A stretch of DNA of 61,743 nt from an uncultured Bacteroidales bacterium (GTDB lineage Bacteria > Bacteroidota > Bacteroidia > Bacteroidales > FEN-979): positions 1 to 61,743 of the forward strand of contig CAIRDP010000057.1 in assembly GCA_903877385.1 (NCBI GenBank), written 5' to 3'. The position numbers and the translations under genes were made by a program. Below are positions 36,843 through 53,538 of this stretch, one piece after another (the first letter of the stretch is position 1; every line of letters begins with the position of its first letter). The notes beneath the pieces were generated by a model, which saw only the letters and a list, made by a program, of their open reading frames with translations, had not been told where the DNA came from and made no database searches.

Positions 36843-38072
36843 ATGAAAAAGCTACTGATCTTAGGCGCTGGTACCGGCGGTACCATTATGGCCAACAAAA
36901 TGCGTAACCTTCTCGAGCGTGACGAATGGGACATTACCATCGTCGACCAGCACAAAACCCATTATTACCAGCCGGGTTTCCTGTTCATGCCCTTCGGGTA
37001 TTACACCAAACATGATGTGGTTAAACCCAAAACGAACTTCCTCCCCTTCGGTGTCAACGTGATCTTTCAGGGGATAGAACGAATTGATGCAACTTCCGAT
37101 TCGGTGCATTTAAAAGACGGGACCCTCCTTCACTATGATTTTCTGATCATCGCAACGGGCACCCGCACAGCCCCCGAAGAAACTCCCGGTCTGACGGGCC
37201 CCTTATGGCATAAGAATATTTTCGATTTTTACACCTATGAAGGGGCTGAAGCCCTTGCCGGCTTTTTCAAGACATGGAAAGGCAGGGAACTCGTGCTCAA
37301 TATTGCCGATATGCCGATCAAATGCCCGGTTGCACCCCTGGAATTTGTAATGTTTGCCGACGCTTTCTTTACCGAAAGAGGCCTTAGGAACGACATCAAT
37401 ATCACTTACGTGACCCCGATGTCGGGAGCTTTCACCAAACCCAGGGCATCGAAAGTGCTTGGTGAACTCCTGGTCCAGAAGAACATCAAAATTATTCCTG
37501 ATTTTTATATAGAGAAGGTGGATAACGAAAAGAAAGCGATAGTTTCGTACGATGAACGCGAGATCCCCTTTGACTGCCTTATATCCATCCCCGTTCATAA
37601 GGGAAATCCCCTGATCGGACGCAGCGGGCTGGGCGACGAAATGGACTTTGTAAAAGCCGATAAATACACCTTGCAGCAGGTAGAATTTCCAAATGTTTTC
37701 GTGATAGGAGATGCAGGGAATTTCCCCACGTCAAAAGCCGGCTCTGTGGTTCATTTCCAGGCCGATGTCTTGACCGAGAACCTGATGTGTGCCATAGAGA
37801 ACAGGCCGCTCACCGATAAGTTCGACGGGCATTCAAACTGTTATATAGAGACCGGTTTCGGCAAAGGCGCCCTTATCGACTTTAATTATGATACCGAGCC
37901 TTTACCCGGCTCTTTCCCCTTCCCCGGCATAGGACCCTTCGGCCTCCTCAAGGAAACCCGGACCAACCATTACGGAAAACTTATGTTCCGATGGATCTAC
38001 TGGCATATCCTGTTAAAAGGGAAAGAAATGCCGATCGATTCCAAGATGACTATGGCAGGTAAAAAAATGTAA
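36843..38072 (+). CDS. Sulfide:quinone oxidoreductase-like FAD/NAD(P)-binding protein
   Basis: 409 residues of the SQR/flavocytochrome c dehydrogenase family. KKLLILGAGTGGTIMANKMR binds FAD ADP; YHYDFLIIATGTRTAPEETP-like text (residues about 97-118) and NVFVIGDAGNFPTSKAGSVV are the later FAD motifs. Two Cys match the positions of the redox pair in SQR: KCPVAPLEF (about residue 160) and SNCYIETGFGKG (about 335); the third Cys of type I enzymes is missing. The C-terminal FRWIYWHILLKGKEMPI could be an amphipathic membrane anchor. Likely oxidises sulfide or handles polysulfide at the membrane; partner or direction unproven. First gene of the sulfur cluster; DUF1641 gene follows after 11 bp. Confidence 0.8.
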   Translation: MKKLLILGAGTGGTIMANKMRNLLERDEWDITIVDQHKTHYYQPGFLFMPFGYYTKHDVVKPKTNFLPFGVNVIFQGIERIDATSDSVHLKDGTLLHYDFLIIATGTRTAPEETPGLTGPLWHKNIFDFYTYEGAEALAGFFKTWKGRELVLNIADMPIKCPVAPLEFVMFADAFFTERGLRNDINITYVTPMSGAFTKPRASKVLGELLVQKNIKIIPDFYIEKVDNEKKAIVSYDEREIPFDCLISIPVHKGNPLIGRSGLGDEMDFVKADKYTLQQVEFPNVFVIGDAGNFPTSKAGSVVHFQADVLTENLMCAIENRPLTDKFDGHSNCYIETGFGKGALIDFNYDTEPLPGSFPFPGIGPFGLLKETRTNHYGKLMFRWIYWHILLKGKEMPIDSKMTMAGKKM

Positions 38073-38083
38073 ATCGGGGAATT

Positions 38084-38746
38084 ATGGCTGAAAAAGAAAT
38101 ACAGGAGCAGCTTAACGAGCTCCGTCAGAAAATGGACCTGATGCTGGAATATGTTTCGGTACAGAATCAGAAGAGAGAAGAAATCGATGATTTTGTCGAG
38201 GATGCGGGCATAATTGTCAAGGATGTGGTTAAACAAACCTCCTTAATGCTCGACAAAGCCCAGGTTGAACTGGATCATTGCGGCCTTTCCTGCCTCATGA
38301 TCAAGGTTCTTCAGAACGTCGGCACTTTTCATGAGATGTTCGAAATGATGGAAAGTGCAAAGGATTTCATGAAGGACGTCACTCCCATACTGCATCAGGT
38401 TGGGCTTGATGCGGTAAATAAGATGAATGAATTCGACAGCAAAGGGTACTTTGATTATATCAGGGAACTTGGTAATTTCGCTGATCAGTGGGTAACGGTT
38501 TTTACAAAGGACGATATCATAAGGCTGGAGAACAACCTGGAGAATATTGCAGGTATAGTTCGCAATCTGTCGGATCCCGCCCTCATGAAAAGCCTGAATA
38601 ATATGACCCTTGCCCTTTCCTTAGTGAAACCGGATGAGAAACTTGACAATAAATCACTGTTTGGATTGTTCAAACAACTGAACTCTCCCGAGCTGAGAAA
38701 GTCATTGTCGTATTCTCTGAGGCTGGTGCAGGCAATGAATAAATGA
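38084..38746 (+). CDS. DUF1641 family protein
   Basis: 220 residues, predicted mostly helical. The N-terminal half has a short coiled coil (EIQEQLNELRQKMDLMLEYV); the C-terminal half carries the DUF1641 pattern around TKDDIIRLENNLENIAGIVR, LNNMTLALSLVKPDEKLDNK and SLFGLFKQLNSPELRKSLSY. DUF1641 genes often lie next to SQR-like flavoproteins and Hdr-like sulfur genes; the molecular role is unknown. It holds two Cys (HCGLSC). Translationally close to the SQR-like gene. Confidence 0.82.
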   Translation: MAEKEIQEQLNELRQKMDLMLEYVSVQNQKREEIDDFVEDAGIIVKDVVKQTSLMLDKAQVELDHCGLSCLMIKVLQNVGTFHEMFEMMESAKDFMKDVTPILHQVGLDAVNKMNEFDSKGYFDYIRELGNFADQWVTVFTKDDIIRLENNLENIAGIVRNLSDPALMKSLNNMTLALSLVKPDEKLDNKSLFGLFKQLNSPELRKSLSYSLRLVQAMNK

Positions 38747-38750
38747 TGGA

Positions 38751-38816
38751 CCATGTACCATGTACAATGTACGAATAGGGAATCTGTTTTTCATTTGTAC
38801 ATGGTACAAGGTACTT
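38751..38816. repeat. ACCATGTAC-word palindrome, two arms
   Basis: CCATGTACCATGTACAATGT on the left and CATTTGTACATGGTACAAGG on the right surround GAATCTGTTTTT. It is the best sibling of the copy at 7976-8048 and occupies the gap between the DUF1641 and dsrC-like genes, apparently within an operon. Confidence 0.78.
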
Positions 38817-38887: not shown

Positions 38888-39199
38888 ATGGCACAGAAAA
38901 ATTTTGCTGGAATCAGCGTAGATGTGAATGATGAAGGGTATATGACAAACCCTTCGCAATGGACCAAAGACATTGCCAGGGAAATTGCAAAGGAAGAAGG
39001 TATCGAACTTACCGAGAAACACTATTCGTTGCTGGAATTCCTTCGCCAGAAGCAGGCTAAGGGTGAGAGCCTCACAATCAGGTCGGTCGGGACCAGCGGT
39101 TTTATTGACATTAAAGGCTTTTACCAGCTTTTCCCGGGAGCTCCCATGAAGAAAGCCGCTAAAATTGCAGGCATTCCCAAGCCGGCTTCCTGTGTTTAA
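38888..39199 (+). CDS. DsrC/TusE family sulfur-carrier protein, single-Cys form
   Basis: 103 residues of the DsrC/TusE/DsvC family. YMTNPSQWTKDIAREIAKEE and the C-terminal arm GFYQLFPGAPMKKAAKIAGI then PKPASCV are diagnostic. The penultimate Cys102 (CysB) is present, but the position eleven residues earlier, where DsrC has CysA, is Ala91. Such single-Cys members act like TusE, taking a persulfide from a TusA/DsrE-type donor, and cannot form the intramolecular DsrC disulfide. A second, two-Cys family member is encoded at 42544. It precedes a DsrE-family gene by 29 bp. Confidence 0.92.
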   Translation: MAQKNFAGISVDVNDEGYMTNPSQWTKDIAREIAKEEGIELTEKHYSLLEFLRQKQAKGESLTIRSVGTSGFIDIKGFYQLFPGAPMKKAAKIAGIPKPASCV

Positions 39200-39228: not shown

Positions 39229-39729
39229 ATGGTAAAAGAAGAATTTCCCCTGAAAAAAGTCTGCATAATCTGCGCAAAGGGAACGATTGAAGATGTGTAT
39301 GCAACCCTCGTAATGAGTAACGGCGCCGTGATGGAAGGCATTGAGACCAAAATCTTTTTTACCTTCTTCGGGCTGGATGCCATTACAAAAAAACAAATGA
39401 AAAGCCTGCATACAGGCACTGTAGGCAATCCGGCCATGCGTATGCCCGGCGGACTGCCCTTTCCTACCCTTCTGGGCATATTGCCAGGGGTGGAAGCCGG
39501 CGTATCGTCCATGATGAAAAGCCAGATGGAAGCCCTGGATATTCCACCGGTACAGGAATTTCTTGAAATGATAGAAGCCGGCGGAGGAGAAGTTTTCGCC
39601 TGCAAACTGGCCATGGATATGTTCAAGCTGAAAAAAGAAGACCTCTGGGACGGTGTTAAAGCGGTTCTGACCGTTGGTGAATTTTACGAAATGTGCGGAG
39701 GGTTACAAACCCAGATCATCTTCACATAA
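39229..39729 (+). CDS. DsrE/DsrF/DrsH-like (DsrE2-type) sulfurtransferase
   Basis: 166 residues of the DsrE-like family that carries persulfide sulfur between TusA and DsrC-type acceptors. The N-terminal KKVCIICAKGTIEDVYATLV strand has Cys12 and Cys15. The later Cys in EVFACKLAMDMFKLKKEDLW occupies the position conserved in DsrE2 (compare INICEMSMNLMGFKKEEM in the paralogue at 46187), and GGLQ/MCGG lies near the end. The hydrophobic stretch GLPFPTLLGILPGVEAG is typical of the longer DsrE2 type. Same operon as the dsrC-like gene; convergent with the regulator gene. Confidence 0.85.
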   Translation: MVKEEFPLKKVCIICAKGTIEDVYATLVMSNGAVMEGIETKIFFTFFGLDAITKKQMKSLHTGTVGNPAMRMPGGLPFPTLLGILPGVEAGVSSMMKSQMEALDIPPVQEFLEMIEAGGGEVFACKLAMDMFKLKKEDLWDGVKAVLTVGEFYEMCGGLQTQIIFT

Positions 39730-39740: not shown

Positions 39741-40442
39741 TTATCCGTTCCTGCTGATCTGCTGAAGCAGGTCCGGATCCTTGATTCTTACGAGCCTGTC
39801 TTCGACCGACAGTATCCCGTCCTCTTTTAATTTAAGCAAAACCCGGGTTGCGCTTTCCCTCGATATTCCTATCAGGTCGGCAAGTTCCTGCCTTGTAAAC
39901 GGGATCTCAAATTCCATGTTCTCGTATATGATCCGCGAAAAATACAACATTGCGTCGGCCACCTTGCCGTAAGTCTTCTTCTGAGACTGGCTCATGAAGC
40001 GGTGAAAATTGTTCAGACTGTCGCGTGAAACCGAGATAAGAATCTCGTAGGCAAACTCCCCATTCTTTTTAATGAGTTGCTTAAACATACTTATGTCGAT
40101 ATAACAGACCTTGATGTCTTCAAGTGCAGCGTAAGAATAATGGTTCACTCTGTCACCAAACAGTGACGGCAGCCCCAGGTAACTGTATCTCTTGACTATC
40201 TGCAGGATTTGCTCTTTATCCTTTGATGTCCTCACATATTCCTTGACCAGCCCCGATTTAAGGTAAATAATGTTTGAATTCAGGGATCCTTCATGAATTA
40301 TAATATCACCCTTTTTAAATTCAGCTTCACGGCTGTTTTCATTCACCAGGTCCAGCTCCCCGGGCGCCAGTATGGCAGCGGCACAGGACTTTTCCTTGCA
40401 ATCACGGCAATGGGTTTTATATGGAAGGGGATCGGGAAACAT
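39741..40442 (-). CDS. Crp/Fnr family regulator with N-terminal Cys cluster
   Basis: 233 residues. An N-terminal Cys12-x2-Cys15-x4-Cys20 (HCRDCKEKSC) plus Cys at about 113 (IKVCYIDIS) recalls the four ligands of the Fnr [4Fe-4S] cluster. A cyclic-nucleotide-binding-like jellyroll (FKKGDIIIHEGSLNSNIIYL) and a C-terminal helix-turn-helix (TRQELADLIGISRESATRVL) follow. It is the only regulator in the sulfur cluster, and TGTGA-N6-TCACA sites of the Crp/Fnr type lie upstream of itself and at 46066. It probably senses oxygen, redox state or sulfane sulfur; the ligand is inferred. Confidence 0.88.
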   Translation of the reverse strand: MFPDPLPYKTHCRDCKEKSCAAAILAPGELDLVNENSREAEFKKGDIIIHEGSLNSNIIYLKSGLVKEYVRTSKDKEQILQIVKRYSYLGLPSLFGDRVNHYSYAALEDIKVCYIDISMFKQLIKKNGEFAYEILISVSRDSLNNFHRFMSQSQKKTYGKVADAMLYFSRIIYENMEFEIPFTRQELADLIGISRESATRVLLKLKEDGILSVEDRLVRIKDPDLLQQISRNG

Positions 40443-40505: not shown

Positions 40506-40521
40506 TGTGATTATTATCACA
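40506..40521. promoter_or_regulatory. Crp/Fnr-type operator
   Basis: TGTGATTATTATCACA is TGTGA-N6-TCACA with 6-bp perfect arms, in the gap between the regulator gene (minus) and the NifX-like gene (plus). A second, poorer site TTGTC-ATTATA-TCACG lies at 40536-40551. The same consensus recurs at 46066-46081. Confidence 0.7.
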
Positions 40522-40649: not shown

Positions 40650-40714
40650 ACCACATGGTTTCAGGCCTGCTTTTATCATCATTAAAGCTGAAGGGCCTGC
40701 TAAAGGAAAAACAT

Positions 40715-41056
40715 ATGAAAGCAGCAATTCCCACGAACGACGGTATAATGATGGCCAGCTTATTTGAACAGGCCAAGGGGTTTCTTGTCCTGAATATTGA
40801 ACTGGGGAAAATTGTAAAGGAAGAATTAATATGGAATAATACCAGGTATATCGCAGATTCACCCGAAGGATTTCTGGCTCCCCTTAATGAGTGTTCAGCG
40901 GTTTTTGCCGAAAAGATAGCAGATTCCCTTAAATCAGCCCTGGGCAAAAAAGGCATCTCCCTGATCCGGAGCCACGATAGTATAATCACAAATGTTATTG
41001 TGAACTATCTGGAAAATGAAGTCGGCAAAGCAGCCGATTATTGTTGTTGTCCGTGA
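40715..41056 (+). CDS. NifX/NifB-like dinitrogenase iron-molybdenum cofactor domain protein
   Basis: 113 residues. The N-terminus MKAAIPTNDGIMMASLFEQA and LVLNIELGKIVKEELIWN match the small NifX/NifB C-terminal-like domain that binds metal clusters; no nif genes are nearby. The protein ends in DYCCCP, three adjacent Cys that could bind metal or carry sulfur. The ATG at 40715 was preferred to 40655 because the domain starts there. A cysteine-desulfurase-like gene begins 13 bp downstream. Confidence 0.72.
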   Translation: MKAAIPTNDGIMMASLFEQAKGFLVLNIELGKIVKEELIWNNTRYIADSPEGFLAPLNECSAVFAEKIADSLKSALGKKGISLIRSHDSIITNVIVNYLENEVGKAADYCCCP

Positions 41057-41069: not shown

Positions 41070-42536
41070 ATGAACCTCGAATCGTATTTCAAACCATTCC
41101 GCAACTCTACAATAGGTGATGGGCAGACTTACCTTACCCGGTATGGCCTTCAGCATATGGTATATGCCGACTGGATCGCCAGCGGCCGTTTATACAGACC
41201 CATTGAAGATATTATTACAGGCCGAATAGGTCCTTTTGTGGGCAATACCCATACCGAGACCAGCGAAACCGGTAAATTGATGACGCTTGCCTATCACAGG
41301 GCCCATCAGAACATCAAGAAACATGTCAATGCCGGGCTAAACGATGTGATCATCACCACGGGCTTCGGGATGACAGGGGCTGTTGTGAAATTCCAGAGGA
41401 TACTGGGAATGAAACAATGTGCCATGCTTTCAGGCGGGAAATGCCTGAAAGAAAAGGAAAAACCCGTGGTTTTCATCACCCATATGGAGCATCATTCGAA
41501 TCAAACCTCCTGGTATGAAACCGTGGCCGATGTAGTAGTTATAAAACCGGGCAAAGATCTGTTGTTCGACCTCAACCATCTTGAGGACACCCTGAAATCA
41601 TACGGCAAAGGCAGAAAACTTATAGGTTCCTTCACTGCCTGTTCGAATGTGACTGGCGTAAGAACACCCATTCATGAAATGGCGGCCTTGATGCATAAGT
41701 ACGGAGGGAAGATATTTGTTGATTATGCAGCCTCTGCACCTTACGAAGATATTAATATGCATCCCGGTGATCCTATGCAGGACCTGGATGCGGTGTATTT
41801 CTCTCCGCATAAATTTCTTGGAGGGCCGGGTTCCTCGGGAGTCCTGATTTTCAATACAAACCTGTACAACAACCGTGTTCCCGACCAGCCGGGAGGAGGC
41901 ACAGTTGATTGGACCAATCCCTGGGGCGACTACAAATTCATTGATGATATAGAAATACGGGAAGACGGGGGTACGCCGGGCTTCCTTCAGTCAATACGGG
42001 CCGCTCTAAGCATGGATCTGAAGAACCAAATGGGGGTTTCAAATATACGCGAACGGGAAGACCAGTTGCTGGCTGTCGCGTTCGGGGAACTCTCGGGAGT
42101 CCCGGGACTGCATATCCTGGCCGACAATGTCACTTCCCGCCTGGGTGTTATTTCGTTTTATATTGATTCCATTCATTATAACCTCATTGTTTCCCTGCTG
42201 AGTGACCGCTTCGGAATTCAGGTCAGGGGCGGATGTGCCTGTGCCGGAACTTATGGTCACTACCTGCTTGATGTGAGCTTTGAAAAATCACAAAAGATAA
42301 CGAACAGCATTTCCAGCGGAGACTTATCTGAGAAACCAGGCTGGGTAAGGCTTTCACTTCATCCGACCATGACAGACCAGGAGTTGGTTTACATTGCTGA
42401 TGCATTACGCCAGATCTCGCTTAAGCATAAAGAGTGGATCAGCGACTACGAGTACAACAAACACACCAATGAATTCAGGCTTAACAGGGAAAATCCCTCA
42501 GCCACAGATATCAATAAATGGTTAACTCTGCAATAA
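41070..42536 (+). CDS. Class V aminotransferase, cysteine-desulfurase-like (long form)
   Basis: 488 residues from ATG 41070 (an ATG at 41016 overlaps the upstream gene). PLP fold with ITTGFGMTGAVVKFQRILG, FITHMEHHSNQTSWYE, KIFVDYAASAPYEDI (PLP Asp), and the Schiff-base Lys in YFSPHKFLGGPGSSGVLIF. A Cys-rich loop, QVRGGCACAGTYGHYLL, stands where desulfurases carry the catalytic persulfide Cys. It is larger than IscS/SufS (about 400) and has a C-terminal extension. I infer release of sulfane sulfur from cysteine for the adjoining DsrC/DsrE/TusA carriers. The gene lies 7 bp before the two-Cys DsrC. Confidence 0.82.
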   Translation: MNLESYFKPFRNSTIGDGQTYLTRYGLQHMVYADWIASGRLYRPIEDIITGRIGPFVGNTHTETSETGKLMTLAYHRAHQNIKKHVNAGLNDVIITTGFGMTGAVVKFQRILGMKQCAMLSGGKCLKEKEKPVVFITHMEHHSNQTSWYETVADVVVIKPGKDLLFDLNHLEDTLKSYGKGRKLIGSFTACSNVTGVRTPIHEMAALMHKYGGKIFVDYAASAPYEDINMHPGDPMQDLDAVYFSPHKFLGGPGSSGVLIFNTNLYNNRVPDQPGGGTVDWTNPWGDYKFIDDIEIREDGGTPGFLQSIRAALSMDLKNQMGVSNIREREDQLLAVAFGELSGVPGLHILADNVTSRLGVISFYIDSIHYNLIVSLLSDRFGIQVRGGCACAGTYGHYLLDVSFEKSQKITNSISSGDLSEKPGWVRLSLHPTMTDQELVYIADALRQISLKHKEWISDYEYNKHTNEFRLNRENPSATDINKWLTLQ

Positions 42537-42543: not shown

Positions 42544-42861
42544 ATGGCAACACTTGAAATAGACGGTAAAGCGTTTCTGGTAGACGGAGATGGTTTTCTC
42601 ACCACTCCCGAAGTCTGGACCGAAGAGGTGGCAAGGAGTTTTGCCCGATACGACGGTATCACCGAAATGAATGAAAAACACTGGGCTGTAGTCAAACTTA
42701 TACGCCGTACCTGGGAGGAGAAGGCGATGGCTCCCATGGTAAGAGTACTATGCCAGGAAACCGGACTTAAACTCCGTGAGATTTATGAACTTTTCCCGCT
42801 GGGACCGGCCAGGGGTGCTTGCCGCGTGGCAGGCCTGCCTAAACCCGATGGTTGCGTATAA
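42544..42861 (+). CDS. dsrC: DsrC family protein with both redox cysteines
   Basis: 105 residues. AFLVDGDGFLTTPEVWTEEV and IYELFPLGPARGACRVAGLP followed by KPDGCV define the family. Both C-terminal-arm cysteines are present: Cys93 (CysA) and Cys104 (CysB), eleven residues apart at the same numbers as in D. vulgaris DsrC. Such proteins carry a sulfite- or sulfur-derived trisulfide between the two Cys, which DsrMK reduces. The next two genes encode a DsrM-like and a DsrK-like protein. No dsrAB is in the window, so its sulfur source must be different here. Confidence 0.93.
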   Translation: MATLEIDGKAFLVDGDGFLTTPEVWTEEVARSFARYDGITEMNEKHWAVVKLIRRTWEEKAMAPMVRVLCQETGLKLREIYELFPLGPARGACRVAGLPKPDGCV

Positions 42862-42873: not shown

Positions 42874-43506
42874 ATGACCTGGTATACCGTGTTTTTCTTC
42901 ATTGCCTTCCTGGTTTGCATGGCCGGTCTTAGCTTTCACCTGCTTCGTCTTTTGCAATCAGGGAACAACATGGACTATGCACCTCAATCGGGAAGCATTA
43001 CGGCAGGAATTCGATACTCCTTCACCGGGGCCATGAGCCCGACAAAAAAGGAATCTGCTTTCCTGCATCTTCCAACCTATTCAGCAGGAATCATCTATCA
43101 CCTTGGAACATTTCTATCGGTGCTTCTGATTTTTATTTTGTGGGCGGATGTGATCTTCCCTGCGGCCCTGTCATGGGGTCTTGCCTCATTTCTGCTGGTA
43201 TCTGCTCTTTGCGGTATTGGTATACTGCTCAAAAGAATGATAAAAAAAGGGCTGAGGGAACTCTCAAACCCCGATGATTATATTTCAAACGTTCTTGTTA
43301 CCGTTTTTCAGCTCCTGATGGGACTTACACTGGTTTCGGGTAAGGTTTTCACTCCCTGGCTTTTTATTGCAGCAGCACTGCTGTTATTTTACATTCCTCT
43401 TGGAAAGTTAAAACACCTTTTGTATTTCTTTGCGGCAAGATGGCAACTTGGGCTTTTTTATGGCCGCAGGGGCGTATGGCCTCCCATAAAGAACCAGAAA
43501 CCCTGA
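42874..43506 (+). CDS. DsrM/NarI-like cytochrome b membrane subunit
   Basis: 210 residues with about five transmembrane helices: TVFFFIAFLVCMAGLSFHLL, HLGTFLSVLLIFILWADVIF, LSWGLASFLLVSALCGIGIL, LVTVFQLLMGLTLVSG, and WLFIAAALLLFYIP. Histidines that could ligate b hemes are at the end of helix 1 (FHLLRLL), in LHLPTYSAGIIYHLG and in KLKHLLYFFAARW, as in NarI/DsrM/HmeC. It would take electrons from menaquinol (or give them) and pass them to the DsrK-like protein encoded 3 bp downstream. Confidence 0.82.
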   Translation: MTWYTVFFFIAFLVCMAGLSFHLLRLLQSGNNMDYAPQSGSITAGIRYSFTGAMSPTKKESAFLHLPTYSAGIIYHLGTFLSVLLIFILWADVIFPAALSWGLASFLLVSALCGIGILLKRMIKKGLRELSNPDDYISNVLVTVFQLLMGLTLVSGKVFTPWLFIAAALLLFYIPLGKLKHLLYFFAARWQLGLFYGRRGVWPPIKNQKP

Positions 43507-43509: not shown

Positions 43510-44871
43510 ATGGAAGAAGCTATCAATAAATTTGTATTAGCCCCGGCAGAAGTTGTGGACCCCGGTTCCTTAACAAAAAGAAGGAAACTTACCCAGGGGG
43601 AGATTAACAAAGCCCTGAAAGTATTTGAAAACGGAGGAGGAGCAAAACTCCTGACTCACCTGAACAGTTGTGTTCACTGCGGATTATGCGCCGAAAGTTG
43701 CATTTATTACAAGGCCACAGGCGATGACCGCTTTACCCCGGCCCGCAAAGTCGACCTGGTCGCTTCGGTTTACCGGAGGTACCATACATTCGCAGGAAAG
43801 TACCTGCCTTCATTGGTCAGCGCGAGGGATCTCAATGAAGATACAGCTGATGAAATGGTGGACCTGCTTTTCGGCGCCTGCACCATGTGCGGCCGCTGCA
43901 CAATGCATTGTTCCATAGGAGTCGACATTGCATACCTTGTCAAAACAGGCAGGACCATGCTTTCAGTAATGGGGATGGTGCCTGCCACCTTGCAGTCGAC
44001 AGTTAAAGCTGCCGTTGATACCGGCAATAATATGGGCATCCCCACCCCTGAATTCGTGGACACCCTGAAATGGATGGAAGATGAGATGATGGATGAACCG
44101 GGGACAAAGGATGCCCGCATCCCTGTGGATGCGAAAGGCAGAAACATCCTCTACACCCTCAATCCGAGGGAACCCAAATTCTTCCCCCTTTCCATTTCGG
44201 CTATGGCAAAGATCTTTTATGCTGCAGGCGAAAGCTGGACTCTCTCATCGTCAATGTACGACATCACCAATTACGCCTACTTCTCGGGAAACCAGGATGA
44301 GGCCTCGCTGATCGCAAAGAGGATGTGGGATGAGATGGATAAACTGGATGCATCCACCCTGGTACTTGCCGAATGCGGCCACGGTTCACGTGCCCTGAGA
44401 TGGGAATCGCCGAATTACTTACACAAGACATTCCCTTTCAAAGTAAAAACCTCTGTTGAGATCATAGCCGATTATCTCCATGATGGCAAGATAAAGCTGG
44501 ACAGGGAGAAATTCAAAGAAGCAGTCACCCTGCATGACCCATGCAACCTGGTAAGAAGCGGAGGGATATGCATGGAACAAAGGTATATCCTGAATGAATT
44601 TATCAAAGATTTCAGGGAAATGACACCCTGTGGGATCGACAACTATTGTTGCGGGGGCGGGGGCGGACAGCTTGCCATGAGCGAATACAATGAACGCAGG
44701 ATGAAGACTGCCAGGGTTAAAGCTGAACAAATAAGAAAAACCGGGGCTAAGATCGTGGTATCTCCCTGCCACAACTGCGTGGACCAGCTGACCCAGATCA
44801 ATTTTTCATTTAAACTGAACGTACAAATAAAAACCCTGGCAGAGCTTGTTGCCGACGCCCTTATCTTATAA
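43510..44871 (+). CDS. DsrK/HdrD-like iron-sulfur protein with CCG domain
   Basis: 453 residues. Two [4Fe-4S] ferredoxin motifs, CVHCGLCAESC (54-64) and CTMCGRCTMHC (124-134), are followed by a cysteine-rich CCG domain: LHDPCNLVRSGG, CGIDNYCCGGGGGQLA (from about 374) and SPCHNCVDQL (about 418). SPCHNC is typical of DsrK, which carries a noncubane catalytic cluster that reduces the DsrC disulfide or trisulfide. Together with the membrane subunit upstream and DsrC this forms a DsrMK-DsrC-like unit. It is the only CCG protein in the cluster; no HdrB is found. Confidence 0.92.
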   Translation: MEEAINKFVLAPAEVVDPGSLTKRRKLTQGEINKALKVFENGGGAKLLTHLNSCVHCGLCAESCIYYKATGDDRFTPARKVDLVASVYRRYHTFAGKYLPSLVSARDLNEDTADEMVDLLFGACTMCGRCTMHCSIGVDIAYLVKTGRTMLSVMGMVPATLQSTVKAAVDTGNNMGIPTPEFVDTLKWMEDEMMDEPGTKDARIPVDAKGRNILYTLNPREPKFFPLSISAMAKIFYAAGESWTLSSSMYDITNYAYFSGNQDEASLIAKRMWDEMDKLDASTLVLAECGHGSRALRWESPNYLHKTFPFKVKTSVEIIADYLHDGKIKLDREKFKEAVTLHDPCNLVRSGGICMEQRYILNEFIKDFREMTPCGIDNYCCGGGGGQLAMSEYNERRMKTARVKAEQIRKTGAKIVVSPCHNCVDQLTQINFSFKLNVQIKTLAELVADALIL

Positions 44872-46046: not shown

Positions 46047-46100
46047 GTAATAAGTCCCAGGCCGGTGTGATATATATCACACCGGCCTGGGACTTATTAC
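46047..46100. repeat. Perfect 54-bp palindrome containing a Crp/Fnr operator
   Basis: The left arm 46047-46072 starts GTAATAAGTCCCAGGCCGGT; the right arm 46075-46100 is its exact complement, with TA at the centre. The middle is TGTGATATATATCACA. There is no T tract after it, so it is not an ordinary terminator. It lies 11 bp after the desulfurase stop and about 87 bp before the next ATG. Confidence 0.95.
46066..46081. promoter_or_regulatory. Crp/Fnr-type operator at the centre of the palindrome
   Basis: TGTGATATATATCACA, TGTGA-N6-TCACA, the same consensus as at 40506-40521. Its centre is about 73 bp upstream of the start point predicted from TACCTTTG at 46136, a class I type position. Confidence 0.72.
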
Positions 46101-46186: not shown

Positions 46187-46732
46187 ATGGGCACAGAACT
46201 CGAGAATCAGATTGCTGATTTAAAAAAACAAATCAACCTGCTTAAGGAAGGCACTAAAGACCAGCTTTCGATGGTGGTCTTTTCAGGCGACATGGATAAG
46301 ATCCTTGCTGCTTTGATCATTGCAACAGGCGCAGCCGCTTTCGATATGAAAGTTAAACTCTTCTTTACTTTCTGGGCGATTTCCGCATTGCGGGATCCTG
46401 CAAAAACCGGCAAAGGCAAGAATTTCATTGAGAAAATGTTTGGGATGATGCTTCCTAAAGGGAGTCCCAAACTGAAACTTTCCAATATGAACATGTGTGG
46501 TGCTGGCACCGCCATGATGAAAGGGATCATGAAGAAACACAAGGTCGCATCCATTGAAGAAATGCTGAAAACAGCAGCTGAGTTAGGCATAGAGATCAAC
46601 ATCTGCGAGATGTCGATGAACCTGATGGGGTTTAAAAAGGAAGAGATGATAAATTATCCGCATATGACAATTTGCGGGGTTGCAACTTTCCTTACCGATG
46701 CAGCTGAAAGTAAAATTCAATTATTTATATAA
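46187..46732 (+). CDS. DsrE/DsrF/DrsH-like (DsrE2-type) sulfurtransferase
   Basis: 181 residues, distant paralogue of 39229-39729. An N-terminal helix (ENQIADLKKQINLLKEG) is followed by the DsrE2 core: SMVVFSGDMDKILAALIIAT, MKVKLFFTFWAISALRDP, MCGAGTAMMKGIMKKH, and INICEMSMNLMGFKKEEMIN with the conserved Cys. TICGVATFLTDA ends the domain. It would accept persulfide from TusA or hand it on. First gene of the third transcription unit; tusA follows 86 bp later. Confidence 0.88.
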   Translation: MGTELENQIADLKKQINLLKEGTKDQLSMVVFSGDMDKILAALIIATGAAAFDMKVKLFFTFWAISALRDPAKTGKGKNFIEKMFGMMLPKGSPKLKLSNMNMCGAGTAMMKGIMKKHKVASIEEMLKTAAELGIEINICEMSMNLMGFKKEEMINYPHMTICGVATFLTDAAESKIQLFI

Positions 46733-46818: not shown

Positions 46819-47070
46819 ATGAGCACAGAAGAATTAAAAAACCTCAAATCGAACACCATCGTTGATGCACGCGGAACCGCTTGTCCGGGACCGTTATTAG
46901 CTGCAAAAAAAGCCATCGGAGAGATTGAATCAGGAGAAATTATGGAAATCTATTCCTCGGATGAAGGCACAAAGAACGATATCCCAAAGTGGTGCAATAA
47001 AATGACCCATGAATTTTTAGGGATCATTGAAGAAGACAGCTATTCAAGATTATTTCTGAAGAAAGCATAA
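46819..47070 (+). CDS. tusA: TusA/SirA family sulfur carrier
   Basis: 83 residues. DARGTACPGPLLAAKKAIGE holds the Cys-Pro motif with active Cys22, which carries the persulfide. The remainder (EIMEIYSSDEGTKNDIPKWC, FLGIIEEDSYSRLFLKKA) is the ferredoxin-like two-layer fold typical of TusA. A Shine-Dalgarno-like AAAAAGGAGAAAA lies 10 bp before the ATG, which is unusual for this genome. It links DsrE and DsrC in the proposed relay. The 174-bp gap after it shows no recognisable feature. Confidence 0.93.
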   Translation: MSTEELKNLKSNTIVDARGTACPGPLLAAKKAIGEIESGEIMEIYSSDEGTKNDIPKWCNKMTHEFLGIIEEDSYSRLFLKKA

Positions 47071-47244: not shown

Positions 47245-47640
47245 ATGGAAACAAAAAAATCGCCCAGGATCCTGGTATTCTCTACCGACAAGATCTCTGA
47301 TCCCGGCATTGACCAGGCAGGACTTCGTAAGATCCATTATTCGCCAACGGTATATACCATTAGCCTGCCATGTTCATCGGGCATCAAGCCCCGCTGGGTC
47401 ATGCGTGCATTCGAGCAGGGCTTCGACGGAGTGTTCATTGCCGCCGACGGGCATGAATGTTCCTACAGTTCACGCTGCCCTGAGTTTACCAATAAGATCA
47501 TCGAAGAATGCCAGAAGCAGATGACGGCAAAGGGAATAAGTCCCAAACGCATCAGGATGGCGGCTATTTGTTCTGTATGTGCCGAGCCCTTTGCCAGCCA
47601 CATGGCCAATTTCACAAAAATCTTAGCTGAACTTTCATGA
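47245..47640 (+). CDS. MvhD/FlpD-like hydrogenase delta-type iron-sulfur protein
   Basis: 131 residues of the methyl-viologen-reducing hydrogenase delta (MvhD) family, a small [2Fe-2S] protein that passes electrons into HdrA. Cysteines occur in the family pattern: LPCSSGIKPRWVMRAFEQGF, GHECSYSSRCPE and ICSVCAEPFASHM. It overlaps the HdrA-GltD fusion gene by 4 bp (ATGA), so the products are probably stoichiometric partners. In QmoB of sulfate reducers this domain is fused to HdrA; here it is separate. Confidence 0.88.
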   Translation: METKKSPRILVFSTDKISDPGIDQAGLRKIHYSPTVYTISLPCSSGIKPRWVMRAFEQGFDGVFIAADGHECSYSSRCPEFTNKIIEECQKQMTAKGISPKRIRMAAICSVCAEPFASHMANFTKILAELS

Positions 47641-50384
47641 AGACAGAAGAAAAAAAATACGATGTAATGGTTATCGGGGGCGGCATTGCCGGGCAGGAAG
47701 CGGCCTTATCTCTTGCCAACATGGACTATAAAGTATTGCTTGTCGAGAAAGGTTTATCCATTGGCGGCAAGATGATACAGCTGAGCAAGGTGTTTCCAAC
47801 CCTTGACTGTGCAGCATGCATCACAACACCCAAGATGTCGGAAACGGCAAGACATTCAAACATCACTTTATTATTGAACTCAGAGATCGATAGTATAAAA
47901 AGGAATGAAAGAGGCTTTCATCTTGAGATCAATAAAAATCCCAGGTATGTAAAACCTGAAGCCTGCACCGGCTGCCAGGAATGTGAAATGGCATGTCCGG
48001 AAGTACGCTCTGATGAATACAATGCACATCTTGCAGGACGTAAAGTAGCCTACATCCCCTTCAGCCTTGCCAATCCCAGGATTGCTGTTATCGAGCGCCA
48101 GGACACATCGGCTCCCTGCATCGCAGCCTGTCCGGGTGGAGTGAAACCCTATGGGTATATTTCGCTGGTCCGCAACGGTCAGTATGAAGAGGCCATGCAC
48201 CTGCATATGGAGGACATTCCTATACCGGGGAGCCTGGGCCGTGCCTGTTATTCACCCTGTCAGGGTGAATGCACCCGCGCAAGTCTCGAAGCCACGGTCG
48301 ACATCCGCAGGATAAAAAGATTTTTTGCAGAGGACTATTATATTAAATACCCTGAAGCGCCCGCAAGGCTAATAGAAAAGAACAGCGGCAAGAAAATTGC
48401 CATAGTAGGTTCAGGACCTGCCGGCCTTACCGCCGCTTACCACCTGGCTCTTGCCGGCCACAAGGTGAAGATATTCGAGGCTGCCCCTGAAGCAGGTGGT
48501 ATGTTAAAGCTTACACTCCCCGCTTACCGGCTCCCGAATACCGTCGTGGACAGGGACATTGAGAACATCACTTCACTCGGAGTTGAGATAGAGTGCAACC
48601 ACCCTGTTGGCAGCCTGCACAAGATCAAAGAACTGGGTTATGATGCTGTTTTCGTCGCTGTTGGAACGCATAAAACCAGCAAGATGAACATCCCCGGTTC
48701 AGATCTTAAAGGGGTTGTTTCCTGCCTTGATTTCCTGAGGGAATCGAAAATTGGTCTAAAAACCGATCTTACAGGTAAAAAAGTTATGGTGATCGGTGGC
48801 GGGAATACCGCCATGGATTCGGCCCGCACAGCTTTGCGATTAGGAGCGTCAAAAGTTTCCATCATTTATCGCAGGAGCCGCGAAGAAATGCCGGCATGGA
48901 AAGACGAAATCCATGAGGCCGAAGAAGAAGGAATACACTTTGAGTTACTCCGGAACCCTGCAAAATTTGCTGGCGCAGATGGCAGTCTCACTCATGTTGT
49001 CCTGATCAAGATGGCCCTGGGTGAACCGGATGCAAGCGGCCGCAGGAAACCTGTCGAGGTAAAGGGTTCTGAATATACCGAGGACGTTGATTTTGTTATT
49101 GAAGCCATAGGGCTATCCCCTACCACATCCGCCTTCAGCAAAGAAATTGAACTGGAAAAGGACGGCCGAATCAAAACCGATAAAAATACATTGCAGACTG
49201 CCACCCCCTGGTTATTTGCAGGCGGAGATTCGGTCAGCGGTTCTTCAACCATTATTGAAGCAGCCGGACAGGGAAAACGTGCAGCCTTTTATATGGACAA
49301 ATACCTGCAAGAACTTGAATTGTCTGATTTCGAGTTTGGCGACAAACTTCCGGCAGTGGACAAAAAGAAAATTTTAGCCAGGACCGACATTAAATTGAAA
49401 CCTGCGCTGGATGAAAAAGTAAGGCCGGTTGCAGAACGGATTAAAGACTTCAATGAAGTTGAATTTACATTCACTGAAGAAGAAGTTCACCAGAGCGCCG
49501 ACCGCTGCCTCGATTGCAGCAACTGCAGGGAATGTCACCAGTGTGTGAGCGCCTGCCCGGCATACGCAATAGATTTCTCCCAGAAAAAAGAAATTGTAAA
49601 AGCATATGCAAGTTCAGTGATCATTGCATCCGGCTTCAATTTGTTCAACGCTGCATATAAACCGCAGTATTCTTTCAACCAGCTTCCCAATGTGATCGAT
49701 TCATTGCAGATGGACAGGCTCATCGCCCCGACCCGCCCCTACAATAACGTACTCAGGCCGGGTGACGGGAAAACCCCGGGAAATATTGCTTATGTATTGT
49801 GCACAGGATCCAGGGATTCAAGCCTTGAAAATTTCCGTTCATGTTCGGTTGCAGCTACTAATAATCCCATTTGTTCACAGATTTGCTGCATGTATTCGCT
49901 CAAGCAGGCTCAGCTTCTTATGGGAGCTTTACCCATGGCGGATATCACAATCTATTATATGGACATACGCACTTTTGGCAAGGGTTACGAGGAATTTTAC
50001 CAGCAGTCGAAATCCATGGGTGTTAACCTGGTGAAAGCCAAAGTTGCCAGGATCAAAGGCAAGGAAGACGGAAAGGGAGACGTGGTTTTGAGGATTGAAG
50101 ATGTGGAGACAGGACAGGTAAAAGAAATGACCCATGACCTGGTGGTGCTTTCGGTAGGCATGATGCCCGAGAATGCAGTACTAAAGTCATTTAAAGACGG
50201 CAGCCCTGCTCTTGACCAGTATAATTTCATCAAACAGATCGACCTTCAACTGAACCCGGCAAGGACCAGCGTGGAAGGAGTTTTTGTAGCCGGCACATCA
50301 GCAGCCCCTATGGATATTCCCGATTCGATTTTATCGGCAGGGGCGGCAGCGAGTGAGGTGGCGGCATATCTTAGTCAACAATAA
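47637..50384 (+). CDS. HdrA-like flavoprotein with inserted GltD/NfnB-type NAD(P)H flavodomain
   Basis: 915 residues. The HdrA part starts DVMVIGGGIAGQEAALSLAN, with LDCAACITTPKMSE and a [4Fe-4S] site CTGCQECEMACP (110-121). From about 158 a GltD-like unit begins (CIAACPGGVKPYGY, ACYSPCQGECTR), with FAD motif IAIVGSGPAGLTAAY (about 253), NAD(P) motif VMVIGGGNTAMDSARTALRL (about 383) and PWLFAGGDSVSG. It is followed by CLDCSNCRECHQCVSACP (623-640) and the second HdrA half: VLCTGSRDSS, CSQICCMYSLKQAQ, DIRTFGKGYEEFY. The insert should let NAD(P)H reduce, or be reduced by, the HdrA flavin. Such flavins can bifurcate; whether this one does is unknown. Confidence 0.92.
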   Translation: MKTEEKKYDVMVIGGGIAGQEAALSLANMDYKVLLVEKGLSIGGKMIQLSKVFPTLDCAACITTPKMSETARHSNITLLLNSEIDSIKRNERGFHLEINKNPRYVKPEACTGCQECEMACPEVRSDEYNAHLAGRKVAYIPFSLANPRIAVIERQDTSAPCIAACPGGVKPYGYISLVRNGQYEEAMHLHMEDIPIPGSLGRACYSPCQGECTRASLEATVDIRRIKRFFAEDYYIKYPEAPARLIEKNSGKKIAIVGSGPAGLTAAYHLALAGHKVKIFEAAPEAGGMLKLTLPAYRLPNTVVDRDIENITSLGVEIECNHPVGSLHKIKELGYDAVFVAVGTHKTSKMNIPGSDLKGVVSCLDFLRESKIGLKTDLTGKKVMVIGGGNTAMDSARTALRLGASKVSIIYRRSREEMPAWKDEIHEAEEEGIHFELLRNPAKFAGADGSLTHVVLIKMALGEPDASGRRKPVEVKGSEYTEDVDFVIEAIGLSPTTSAFSKEIELEKDGRIKTDKNTLQTATPWLFAGGDSVSGSSTIIEAAGQGKRAAFYMDKYLQELELSDFEFGDKLPAVDKKKILARTDIKLKPALDEKVRPVAERIKDFNEVEFTFTEEEVHQSADRCLDCSNCRECHQCVSACPAYAIDFSQKKEIVKAYASSVIIASGFNLFNAAYKPQYSFNQLPNVIDSLQMDRLIAPTRPYNNVLRPGDGKTPGNIAYVLCTGSRDSSLENFRSCSVAATNNPICSQICCMYSLKQAQLLMGALPMADITIYYMDIRTFGKGYEEFYQQSKSMGVNLVKAKVARIKGKEDGKGDVVLRIEDVETGQVKEMTHDLVVLSVGMMPENAVLKSFKDGSPALDQYNFIKQIDLQLNPARTSVEGVFVAGTSAAPMDIPDSILSAGAAASEVAAYLSQQ

Positions 50385-50386
50385 AA

Positions 50387-50428: not shown

Positions 50429-52426
50429 ATGGAAGAGAAAAAGAAAAAACAAAGAATAGGCGTTTACATCTGCCATTGCGGGGGTAATATCTCCGATTAC
50501 GTGGATGTGGAGCAGCTTCGCGATATAGTGGGCCAGGAAGAAAACGTGGCAGTTTCAAAAAATGTGATGTTTGCGTGTGCCGATTCCAACCAGAAGGAGA
50601 TGATCAAGGATATTCAGGAAAAGCAGCTCGATGGTATCGTCGTGGCTTCCTGTTCTCCCAAGCTTCACCTGCATACTTTCCGGGGCGTAGCTGAACGTGC
50701 TGGGTTAAATCCCTATAATTATGTACAGGTTAACGTGCGTGAGCAATGTTCCTGGGCCCATTCAGATCACCCTGACCAGGCATCGTACAAAGCAGCCGGT
50801 TTGATCCGTGCGGGTATCCGCAGGGTTTCAAGTTCAGAAGCCCTCACAAATATTGAAGTCAAAGCCACCAAATCGGTTGTTGTAATCGGCGCGGGAGTTG
50901 CCGGAATGCGGGCTGCAATAGACCTTGCACGCATGGGCAATCAGGTTGTGCTGGTTGAGAAAGAACCGGTTGCCGGCGGACAAATGGCCGGTAAAGGTCC
51001 GGTATTCCCTACAAACCAAAAAGGACAGGAACTGGTGGATACCCTTCTTGGAGAGATCCGGAAATTATCGAAGATCACCCTGTTCACCTCGGCTACCGTA
51101 GATAAAGTCACTGGCAGCATAGGAAATTTCAAGGTGGATGTGAGAGTGAACGGCACCCCCGGCGAAGTCATGAGCTTCCCGGCAGGAGCCATACTGGTAA
51201 CTACCGGTTATGAATCCTATGCACCCAAAGAAGGCGAATATGGTTTCACCGAAGGCAGCAGGGTGATCACGATGAAAGAATTTGACAAGCTGGTTGATTC
51301 ATCAAACGGCAGTCTTTCTTACCAGGGAAAAGCTGTTAAGACCATTGCATACATCTACTGTGTAGGCATGAGGCAGACCAAGGGAGAGAACAAATATTGT
51401 TCAAGGAGCTGCTGTACCGCCGCCATCCATTCTTCCATCACAGTACATGAAAAGTTCAAGGGCATAAAGGCGTTTCATTTGTACCGCGACATCCGCACTT
51501 ACGGAAAAAATGAAATATTGTATGAGAAGTCATCCAAATTGGGTGATACTTACCTGATGTATCAGGAAAAAGAGCCTCCTCAAGTGGTGCAGGGGAAAAA
51601 TATTGTTAATGTAAAAATCAAGGATTCGCTGACCAGGAAAAGGGAACTTGAACTTGACGCCGACCTGGTAGTATTGGTCACCGGCATGGTGCCCCGTAAA
51701 GACAGCCAGGATATCGCAAACAAACTGAAGATACCCATCGGGAGTGACAAATTCTTTAACGAGATACATCCGAAACTCAGACCGGTTGAAACTGTAATCA
51801 ATGGAGTATTCCTGGGCGGAAGTTGCCAGGGACCCAAAAATATAACCGAATCGGTACAATCGGCAATGGCGGCTTCGGCAAAGATCAATGCCATTATTCG
51901 TAAAGATACGCTTGAGCTGGAACCTATTGTTGCCCGTATTGATGCGGAAGCCTGCACCTGGTGCGGAAAATGCCAGGAAGTATGCGAATACGATGCAATT
52001 TTCCAGATAGAAACTAACGGCAAAGTCGTGGCGTCGGTGAACGATCCTGTTTGTAAGGGCTGCGGGATCTGTGCCCCAATATGCCCTGCCGACGCCATAG
52101 ACATTGCCCAGTATACAAATGATGAGATCGAAGGGATGATAGACGGATTTTCGCAACAGGTAGACCTGAATGTCGAAAAAGGGAAATCAGGACAAGAGGG
52201 AGATGCAGGAGGCATGAAAGACTTTCCGCAAATCTGGAAATCCATCATGGAAGACCTCTTGGAGGAACCAAAGACAATTCCCCAGATCGCTGCCAGCCTT
52301 CAACAGCCTTCGGAACTTGTAACCTGGCACCTGATGACCATGAATAAATATTATATTGTTGAGTCGGCAGGCATTGACGATAATGATGAATACTTCCTCT
52401 ACAAACTTAAAAACCAGGCGAAATGA
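50429..52426 (+). CDS. HdrA-like flavoprotein with C-terminal winged helix
   Basis: 665 residues. The N-terminal domain (IGVYICHCGGNISDYVDVEQ, VASCSPKLHLHTFRGVAERA, NVREQCSWAH) and FAD domain (VVVIGAGVAGMRAAIDLARM) are canonical HdrA. YCVGMRQTKGENKYCSRSCC and FHLYRDIRTYGKNE lie in the middle. Two [4Fe-4S] motifs follow: CTWCGKCQEVCEYDAI (from 509) and CKGCGICAPICPADAI (from 541). From about 600 to the end there is an ArsR-like winged helix (LEEPKTIPQIAASLQQPSEL, VTWHLMTMNKYYIVESAGID). It overlaps the QmoC-like gene by 4 bp. With the fusion upstream it resembles the QmoA/QmoB pair of sulfate reducers. Confidence 0.9.
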   Translation: MEEKKKKQRIGVYICHCGGNISDYVDVEQLRDIVGQEENVAVSKNVMFACADSNQKEMIKDIQEKQLDGIVVASCSPKLHLHTFRGVAERAGLNPYNYVQVNVREQCSWAHSDHPDQASYKAAGLIRAGIRRVSSSEALTNIEVKATKSVVVIGAGVAGMRAAIDLARMGNQVVLVEKEPVAGGQMAGKGPVFPTNQKGQELVDTLLGEIRKLSKITLFTSATVDKVTGSIGNFKVDVRVNGTPGEVMSFPAGAILVTTGYESYAPKEGEYGFTEGSRVITMKEFDKLVDSSNGSLSYQGKAVKTIAYIYCVGMRQTKGENKYCSRSCCTAAIHSSITVHEKFKGIKAFHLYRDIRTYGKNEILYEKSSKLGDTYLMYQEKEPPQVVQGKNIVNVKIKDSLTRKRELELDADLVVLVTGMVPRKDSQDIANKLKIPIGSDKFFNEIHPKLRPVETVINGVFLGGSCQGPKNITESVQSAMAASAKINAIIRKDTLELEPIVARIDAEACTWCGKCQEVCEYDAIFQIETNGKVVASVNDPVCKGCGICAPICPADAIDIAQYTNDEIEGMIDGFSQQVDLNVEKGKSGQEGDAGGMKDFPQIWKSIMEDLLEEPKTIPQIAASLQQPSELVTWHLMTMNKYYIVESAGIDDNDEYFLYKLKNQAK

Positions 52427-53538
52427 CCAAGATAGATCCACATTTTGCAGATGAACTGAAAAAATACGGGGCAAAGGATTTCGATGCCTGCTTCAACTGC
52501 GGGAATTGTACTGCAATTTGTACACTTACTGAGAAATCGACCAACTTCCCCCGAATGATGTTACGTCTTGGAATGCTTGGCCTGAAAAAGGATATTCTGG
52601 CCAGCAGGGAGCCATGGTTATGTTATGCATGCGGTGATTGCAGTGAAACCTGTCCAAGGCAAGCAGGTCCCGGCCAGTATATGGCTGCTATCAGGCGTTA
52701 TGCCATCTCGGCCTATGAACCAACAGGCCTAACAAAGCTAATGTTTAAAAGTAATCCCATATTTGTTTTTGTCACTTTGCTAATTGCTGTATTCCTGGGT
52801 TTCTTTCTGTTTACCCTGAAACCCGAATATGAAGTATCGCGCTGGATATTCGCTTACCTTCCATATGCTGTAATTCACAACATGGGCTTAGTAATTTTTG
52901 GTTTTACCGGACTTTCCATGATCTGGGGTGCACTATCCATGATCCTGAATCTGAATCGGAATAAGGATAAAAAAGAAAAGTCAGATGTAAGCTTTTTCAA
53001 AGCCCTTTCTCTTGTGATCAGCGAGCTTACAACTTTGAAACGTTACCAGAACTGCGACACCGAGGAAGATTCATTCTGGAAAGAAAAACCCTGGTATGTG
53101 AAGCCCTGGTTGGTGCATTGGGCCATCATGTGGGGATTTATAGGTCTGCTTGTTGCAACCAGCCTTGATTTCATCCTGAAAGATCCTGTAACCACGATAT
53201 GGTGGCCAAGCCGTATCCTGGGATCCATCGCCGGTTTGTTCATGGTATACGGAACCAGTTTGGCCATCAATTACCGTTGGAAAAAAGTGACCAAAGCATA
53301 CAGCGAAACAAGCGCTGCAGACTGGACATTCCTTTGGTTCCTTTGGATTGCAGGAATAACCGGGTTCTGGTTAGAAGCCTCGGTTGCATTTGGAGCAGAC
53401 AATATTGCAACCCAGTTCATTTTCCTGGTTCATACCGTGATCTCGATGGAACTTGTGCTGCTATTTGCCTTTTCCAAGTTCGCACATGCCCTTTACCGCA
53501 CCCTGGCATTGTTTTTTCATTTCAGAAACCAGGGTTAG
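52423..53538 (+). CDS. QmoC-like protein: HdrC iron-sulfur domain fused to cytochrome b membrane domain
   Basis: 371 residues. The HdrC-like N-terminus has two [4Fe-4S] motifs, CFNCGNCTAIC (23-33) and CYACGDCSETCPRQ (67-80). From about 107 there are six hydrophobic segments, including FVFVTLLIAVFLGFFLF, AVIHNMGLVIFGFTGLSMIW, VHWAIMWGFIGLLVATSLDF, and FIFLVHTVISMELVLLFAF. His residues in HNMG, VHW, VHT and KFAHALY could ligate b hemes. This is the QmoC architecture, which joins Hdr-type subunits to the menaquinone pool. It ends the sulfur cluster. Confidence 0.9.
   Translation: MTKIDPHFADELKKYGAKDFDACFNCGNCTAICTLTEKSTNFPRMMLRLGMLGLKKDILASREPWLCYACGDCSETCPRQAGPGQYMAAIRRYAISAYEPTGLTKLMFKSNPIFVFVTLLIAVFLGFFLFTLKPEYEVSRWIFAYLPYAVIHNMGLVIFGFTGLSMIWGALSMILNLNRNKDKKEKSDVSFFKALSLVISELTTLKRYQNCDTEEDSFWKEKPWYVKPWLVHWAIMWGFIGLLVATSLDFILKDPVTTIWWPSRILGSIAGLFMVYGTSLAINYRWKKVTKAYSETSAADWTFLWFLWIAGITGFWLEASVAFGADNIATQFIFLVHTVISMELVLLFAFSKFAHALYRTLALFFHFRNQG

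Follow-up and report, generated by a model that had tools for sequence, protein, structure and literature searches.

A two-cysteine DsrC accompanied by the membrane pair DsrM-DsrK is usually read as a sign of sulfite or sulfate metabolism. In the sections of PMC10504309 and PMC13232883 cited here, DsrMK(JOP) reduces the DsrC-trisulfide with menaquinol as the donor, and the part of PMC3397948 used below states the rule that an equivalent of CysB, the cysteine that joins the penultimate CysA in such proteins, occurs only where DsrAB is also present, with Methylococcaceae, Marinobacter and Lawsonia as exceptions. DsrMK without identified DsrAB has been recorded for seven bacterial assemblies and some Chloroflexi (PMC10504309, in part), so the bare absence of DsrAB has precedent; in the main text of that source no word begins with "Bacteroid". 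Here we describe a block of 17 genes at positions 36843-53538 of a contig from an uncultured Bacteroidales bacterium (CAIRDP010000057.1, 61,743 nucleotides, called the window below), in which a two-cysteine DsrC and a DsrMK-like pair adjoin a cysteine desulfurase. The parts are known; what is new is the apparent sulfur source together with the lack of a sulfite reductase. In the open-licence literature searched, the operon was not found described, a description elsewhere being possible, and the A. vinosum paper was the only one found to bring DsrC, cysteine desulfurase and DsrK together.

The 17-kb block consists of three conserved modules placed together (Table 1). Module A holds a sulfide:quinone oxidoreductase (SQR), a DUF1641-like protein, a single-cysteine DsrC and a DsrE2; module B holds NifX, a class-V pyridoxal phosphate (PLP) enzyme, a two-cysteine DsrC, DsrM, DsrK and a cysteine desulfurase; module C holds a second DsrE2, TusA, MvhD, an HdrA with an NAD(P)H-type insert, HdrA2 and QmoC. 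The only minus-strand gene in the contig's list of open reading frames for the block encodes a Crp/Fnr-type regulator. Module B shares with DsrABC-DsrMK(JOP) sulfite reduction the two-cysteine DsrC, the DsrM/DsrK-like membrane pair and the CCG centre, and differs from it in that neither DsrAB nor another siroheme reductase was found and in that the sulfur apparently comes from the desulfurase. Gene content, cysteine pattern, synteny, the lack of a detected sulfite reductase and a shared operator are all observed. We propose, and judge the chances to be close to even, that module B is a sulfite-reductase-free, menaquinol-driven use of DsrC-DsrMK that frees sulfide from desulfurase-loaded DsrC.

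In the chemical steps, direction and energy conservation that we infer, the desulfurase would take the sulfur of L-cysteine as a persulfide and load it onto CysA of the two-cysteine DsrC. CysB would then attack the CysA persulfide, so that H2S is set free and a disulfide forms in DsrC; DsrM-DsrK would re-reduce DsrC with menaquinol, the b hemes of DsrM handing electrons on to DsrK and its CCG iron-sulfur centre. The net reaction would turn sulfane sulfur and menaquinol into H2S; it would act as an electron sink and might form a redox loop. Loading of CysA by a desulfurase has an in vitro precedent, from a heterologous pair: in the part of PMC3397948 cited, E. coli IscS with cysteine persulfurates A. 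vinosum DsrC, and the modification is lost on mutation of CysA.

The genome to which the window's contig belongs measures 4.3 Mb and is 98% complete. The preliminary description of this DNA had suggested a DsrC/DsrMK route without DsrAB from the window, and the whole genome agrees, having no match to the profiles of dsrA (TIGR02064), aprA or the siroheme sulfite/nitrite reductases (PF01077). Among 149 related genomes, own included, 64 carry DsrC; none has dsrA above the cut-off, a single weak match occurring in G106. The PF01077 search took in 40 of the 64 DsrC genomes, all 29 with a two-cysteine DsrC among them, and matched 11 of 14 known genomes as a control. Of these 40, 39 (own included) gave no siroheme reductase, and neither did any of the 29 two-cysteine genomes; the sole exception is again G106, where only module A was seen. 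In a second class (that of G328), PF01077 was likewise missing from all 11 genomes that have module B or a DsrMK pair akin to its own, and it matched both dsrA-bearing genomes in the same search. Twenty-nine two-cysteine DsrC genes in 29 genomes with no siroheme reductase found thus break the rule of PMC3397948. Sulfite was rejected as a feed for DsrC because PF01077 found no siroheme reductase in these 39 genomes of the order or in those 11 of the second class. The absence does not hold for the whole phylum, since dsrAB or Asr is reported for other Bacteroidota in the parts of PMC11406059 and PMC9040765 cited.

The set is conserved in relatives, which together with the missing dsrA and aprA supports the suggested route; chance is excluded by a gene order kept over dozens of genomes. 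The 64 genomes hold 76 open DsrC frames, one gene (in G056) being split over two contigs. At the CysB position, type I (47 of 76) carries Ala, Ser or Thr and type II (29 of 76) Cys; 35 genomes carry type I only, 18 type II only and 11 both. The own genome has two copies, both in the window: alignments give CysA and CysB to the product of 42544-42861, whose best match among solved structures is the DsrC chain 1ji8, and only CysA to that of 38888-39199. Counting same-strand genes up to 6 kb away, DsrE2a accompanies 44 of 47 type I genes and SQR 42 of 47; dsrK is found at that distance in only six. By the same count, type II genes are accompanied by dsrM (28/29), dsrK (26/29) and the desulfurase (24/29). 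Two further type II genes have the desulfurase on the opposite strand, and of the three without it, those of G011 and G021 stand at contig ends. In G115 (L063, 17323-18853), the desulfurase comes 52 bp after dsrC2 and dsrMK does not intervene, the contig ending nearby. The preliminary description had offered cysteine or SQR as the source of the persulfide. The first half is strengthened by the desulfurase near DsrC2-DsrMK in most loci of the wider scan described next; the second concerns a module that is rarely near dsrK.

A GTDB scan with one genome per species returned 343 stretches related to the DsrK-like protein, of which the best 80 were kept, the other 263 being unseen. Among these best 80, a two-cysteine dsrC and dsrM directly precede dsrK in all 74 named loci with room upstream, and a desulfurase lies within 2 kb downstream of dsrK in 72 of 80. 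The locus titles are of Bacteroidota-side taxa, Ignavibacteria included, except for one plain "bacterium" and L091. The latter, titled Alphaproteobacteria, bears a Bacteroidales-type module B and is probably a mislabelled metagenome-assembled genome (MAG). MAGs from Lac Pavin, a stratified anoxic lake, also have the set. In a phylum-wide sample of 394 other genomes, a module-B-like DsrK was found at E 1e-60 in only one; core B is common in the anaerobic order and rare in the phylum.

Several observations weigh against our proposal. The desulfurase is absent beside dsrC-M-K in L104, L119, L121, L122 and L125, each with at least 4 kb downstream, and in G043, away from a contig end, so it is not universal. 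G002 has nifX, the PLP gene and module C without dsrC2-M-K-desulfurase. The DsrK-like protein scores higher against TmcB (308 bits, cut-off 735) and HmcF (293, cut-off 750) than against the DsrK equivalog (256, cut-off 400), and passes none of the three. AprA lies above its cut-off in three of the 29 two-cysteine genomes (G011, G018 and G140), and in G117, also two-cysteine, it occurs as two fragments, both under cut-off; these could mean oxidative use there. The own genome, too, has SQR, an oxidative enzyme.

The last two points belong to an alternative in which the genes run oxidatively: SQR would turn sulfide into persulfide, which would pass via DsrE2, TusA and DsrC, with DsrMK and the Hdr/Qmo-like complex returning electrons to quinone and AprAB-QmoABC finishing to sulfate in some relatives. 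This accords with SQR in module A and with a sulfur oxidiser whose TusA/DsrE cluster is flanked by Hdr-like genes (PMC4175335, in part). It accords also with AprA, which exceeds its cut-off in eight of the 149 genomes, none with dsrA above cut-off (in the other 37 of 45 genomes with any match, the matches are weaker or partial), and with an apr-qmo gene row in G125 (L069), where AprB, QmoA and QmoB were named by eye. Of the pairings that the preliminary description had raised, dsrA was never above cut-off in these genomes and aprA sometimes. Against an oxidative run, with neither dsrA nor HdrB the cluster has no known sulfite-making enzyme, the own genome has no AprA match, dsrK seldom accompanies the single-cysteine DsrC that adjoins SQR, and module B occurs in a locus (L153) titled water-buffalo rumen, where an oxidative role is improbable. 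We consider this alternative unlikely. The co-occurrence of aprA with qmo-type genes and no dsrA was seen in L069 (G125), L202 (G018), L203 (G140) and both L070 and L204 (G011), and PF01077 found no siroheme reductase in G011, G018, G049 or G140; to find an APS (adenosine 5'-phosphosulfate) reductase-Qmo set and detect no sulfite reductase is unusual in its own right.

The individual proteins of module B are consistent with the quinol-driven release of sulfide proposed here. In the DsrM-like protein, His76 and His181 are invariant and His22 and His65 at least 90% conserved over 24 aligned rows; in 28 relatives His65, His76 and His181 are conserved and His22 falls below 90%. The predicted model has a mean predicted local distance difference test score (pLDDT) of 90, and its best structural match is NarI, the Foldseek matches having probabilities of 0.98-0.99 and E values of at least 0.19. 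Model and histidine pattern fit a b-heme quinol role, the NarI match being support and no proof. The CCG and cluster cysteines of DsrK are invariant in 15 of 15. The closest families by score for the window's DsrK- and DsrM-like proteins are those of Tmc and Hmc (TmcBC, HmcEF), from which the window differs in scores below half of the cut-offs, in having no named cytochrome c gene and in an operon that includes the desulfurase and DsrC. From DsrMK(JOP) it differs, beyond the missed equivalog cut-off, in its distance from dsrA-linked DsrK of the phylum: in a 21-row tree, the two such proteins included are set apart by a long branch (100/100), and a branch with 78/96 support divides the window type from the remaining rows. 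No J, O or P subunit was found among the cluster genes, the extent of that scan. The product of 44875-46035 belongs to the cysteine desulfurase family by profile score and by K203 and C341, kept in 26 of 26 homologues. In the class-V PLP enzyme K266, C407 and C409 are kept in 27 of 27, numbered from a start at 41016 given earlier; 41070 is the likelier start, several homologues beginning at the equivalent place.

If the proposal is true, cysteine would yield sulfide through a quinol-linked route. Such a route is missing from the microbial H2S pathways listed in the part of a 2026 review cited (PMC13232883), where plain cysteine desulfuration is included. It would also provide a testable regulon and counsel caution against calling sulfite reduction from dsrC-dsrMK alone, a combination that here recurs in many Bacteroidales and Ignavibacteria MAGs. 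A wider claim, which we advance tentatively and hold to be doubtful, is that cysteine (sulfane-sulfur) respiration may be widespread in anaerobic Bacteroidota: a desulfurase-loaded two-cysteine DsrC and a minimal menaquinol:DsrC oxidoreductase would conserve energy and make H2S with no sulfite reductase, and DsrC-DsrMK would be a general persulfide-reduction module and no mark of sulfite metabolism. The own genome is also without a detected polysulfide or thiosulfate reductase. A molybdoenzyme of this kind was rejected as sulfur supplier there, because the sole PF00384 match was judged formate-dehydrogenase-like by its domains and neighbours.

DsrC2, DsrMK and the desulfurase might instead serve persulfide homeostasis, thiol redox balancing or biosynthetic sulfide supply, with no respiratory sink, and a Flx-Hdr set encoded elsewhere may share DsrC. 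The Flx-Hdr system meets DsrC in Desulfovibrio, and contig C6 of the own genome encodes an HdrC-HdrB-HdrA-MvhD row with Flx-like genes, the HdrB-like protein having two CCG stretches. Such a role also accords with a cysteine-synthase-like gene directly after the desulfurase or the PLP gene in three loci of genus g3 (L057 15774-16931, L071 5305-6417, L073 13520-14632), all scoring under the cysK cut-off. Set against this is an argument of cost and no result: a dedicated membrane quinol complex would be an expensive way to supply sulfide. We regard this explanation as rather unlikely. A fourth relative of the cysteine-synthase-like gene follows dsrE2a in L072 (genus g6). The C6 row also adds to the earlier statement that HdrB is lacking in the window: a Pfam scan of the cluster genes found none, and HdrB is present elsewhere in the genome with its own HdrA and HdrC alongside.

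The palindrome TGTGA-N6-TCACA occurs twice in the window, at 40506 and 46066, where 0.02 are expected. The DsrC-bearing loci, 1.12 Mb in all, contain 35 exact copies, of which 34 lie no more than 320 bp ahead of dsrE2b, nifX, the PLP gene, sqr or dsrC1. The exact operator precedes 14 of 22 nifX and 11 of 14 dsrE2b starts, own included, or 15 of 22 and 12 of 14 with the two outer bases left free. In each of these 12 dsrE2b cases it lies 120-122 bp ahead of the gene, and in three relatives the site is repeated 22 bp farther along. Its inner six bases vary among relatives, which are not independent, and the half-sites therefore seem to be selected. The operator is rare before sqr (2 of 39 starts) and dsrC1 (3 of 45), placing module A mostly outside the regulon. 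The Crp protein is the putative binder of the operator. The site shows no genome-wide enrichment in the own genome (7 sites, 10 in a reversed control), so its place before these units is the informative part; G006 has 10 against 1 and G010 7 against 3. No clear sulfur gene lay near the other sites looked at. The long palindrome before module C was rejected as a mere terminator hairpin: its 16-bp core is kept in 12 of 14, and pairing beyond that core extends over 10-19 bp in the own genome and three of its genus, and over 0-2 bp in eight others.

The operator bears on whether the modules have anything to do with one another. They occur singly in other families, and in G002, G003, G007 and G008 one module is missing or the modules lie on separate contigs, as would be expected of three unrelated sulfur modules that are neighbours by chance in one family and share no process. 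We find this very unlikely, given that the same operator precedes B and C and that both are co-located in families f1 and f70, the families in which dsrE2b-tusA was seen ahead of the rest of module C. The separability of the modules did lead us to reject the 17 kb as one indivisible system. The single system of the preliminary description is thus replaced by three modules, with the two-cysteine DsrC needed for reduction only in module B.

Module C would, in the own family, supply more sulfane sulfur and link NAD(P)H with the quinone pool under the same operator. In the part of PMC13293266 cited, which offers a further in vitro precedent, both TusA and DsrEFH hand sulfur on to DsrC. Like Qmo, module C has a QmoC-like fusion adjoining two HdrA-type flavoproteins; it differs in missing the QmoC cut-off, in the extra MvhD and NAD(P)H insert, in its TusA-DsrE2 partners, and in the genome's lack of an AprA match. 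Sulfur oxidation by sHdr groups TusA, DsrE and HdrA-like genes, as does the window, which differs in having no HdrB in the cluster. The E. coli IscS-TusA-TusBCD-TusE relay (PMC3397948, in part) resembles the window in its desulfurase, TusA, DsrE-like protein and single-cysteine DsrC/TusE-like protein, to which the window adds quinone-linked redox subunits and the two-cysteine DsrC. With the YTD cluster of sulfur disproportionators (PMC12998232, in part) the window shares tusA and dsrE-type genes; no yedE was found in a scan of the cluster genes. On own contig C63 (L041), a Crp-HdrA-QmoC-HdrA2-MvhD set adjoins a Vhu-like NiFe hydrogenase.

Module A would be an independent neighbour, its single-cysteine DsrC capturing sulfide-derived sulfane sulfur from SQR. 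Cys161 and Cys333 of SQR are kept in 42 of 42 aligned homologues; the model that it passes, NF049943, is named for a selenoprotein subtype. The Pfam scan gave no match for the window's own DUF1641-like protein. The earlier inventory otherwise holds: all the named genes are present, and Pfam and NCBIfam uphold the family calls with small changes.

Table 1. Features of the sulfur gene block, with positions in the window.
Feature	Module or place	Position	Strand	Basis
Sulfide:quinone oxidoreductase type III	A	36843..38072	+	NF049943 627.6 bits (cut-off 525); nearest PDB entry SQOR
DUF1641-like protein	A	38084..38746	+	Homologues L075, L079 above PF07849 cut-off
Single-Cys DsrC (type I, dsrC1; Ala at CysB position)	A	38888..39199	+	PF04358 91 bits; alignments
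DsrE2-type sulfurtransferase (DsrE2a)	A	39229..39729	+	PF13686 96 bits
Crp/Fnr-family regulator	Divergent from B	39741..40442	-	PF13545, PF00027; neighbours in relatives
Palindromic operator TGTGATTATTATCACA	Between crp and B	40506..40521	.	Pattern TGTGA-N6-TCACA
NifX-like small protein	B	40655..41056	+	PF02579 21.4 bits, under cut-off 26.3 (weak)
Divergent class-V PLP enzyme, SufS-like	B	41070..42536	+	PF00266; PDB SufS
Two-Cys DsrC (type II, dsrC2; CysB-CysA spacing 11 residues)	B	42544..42861	+	PF04358 112.5 bits; PDB 1ji8
DsrM/TmcC/HmcE-like membrane subunit	B	42874..43506	+	NCBIfam; alignments; predicted NarI-like fold
DsrK/TmcB/HmcF-like Fe-S protein, CCG domain and two 4Fe-4S motifs	B	43510..44871	+	PF02754; Fer4 models
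Cysteine desulfurase-family enzyme	B	44875..46035	+	TIGR01977 433.4 bits (cut-off 377); PDB matches
Perfect 54-bp palindrome, operator TGTGATATATATCACA at its centre (46066-46081)	Upstream of C	46047..46100	.	
DsrE2-type sulfurtransferase (DsrE2b)	C	46187..46732	+	PF13686 166 bits
TusA	C	46819..47070	+	PF01206 75.7 bits
MvhD/FlpD	C	47245..47640	+	PF02662 94.6 bits
HdrA with inserted NfnB/GltD-type NAD(P)H-binding module (about residues 155-560)	C	47637..50384	+	PF14691, PF07992; PDB NfnA-like and HdrA matches
HdrA2-like flavoprotein	C	50429..52426	+	NCBIfam; PDB HdrA
QmoC-like HdrC-cytochrome b fusion	C	52423..53538	+	NF038018 195 bits (cut-off 300)

In the second class, DsrK-like matches at E 1e-60 occur in 18 of 149 genomes and are of three kinds by score and family. 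The window type is found in five genomes, one partial, with no dsrA; a type scoring 416-432 bits in six, also with no dsrA; and dsrA lies above cut-off in seven genomes with a DsrK-like match, the DsrK locus being read for two of the seven. Three loci of the 416-432 bit type were read (L245, L246 and L247, of G580, G592 and G566); in each, a CxxCH protein comes after DsrE2-TusA-DsrM-DsrK, and DsrC is absent from the stretch. This row may be a second DsrMK arrangement without sulfite reductase, TusA being the possible carrier; a MerR-like regulator also stands in it.

The scanned flanks of the block appear unrelated to it, with queuosine synthesis upstream and AAA/DUF4143 and AbiEii-type genes downstream. 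Farther off, 8089-9612 of the window encodes an aromatic amino acid lyase (PF00221, 527 bits) with no relation to the sulfur set.

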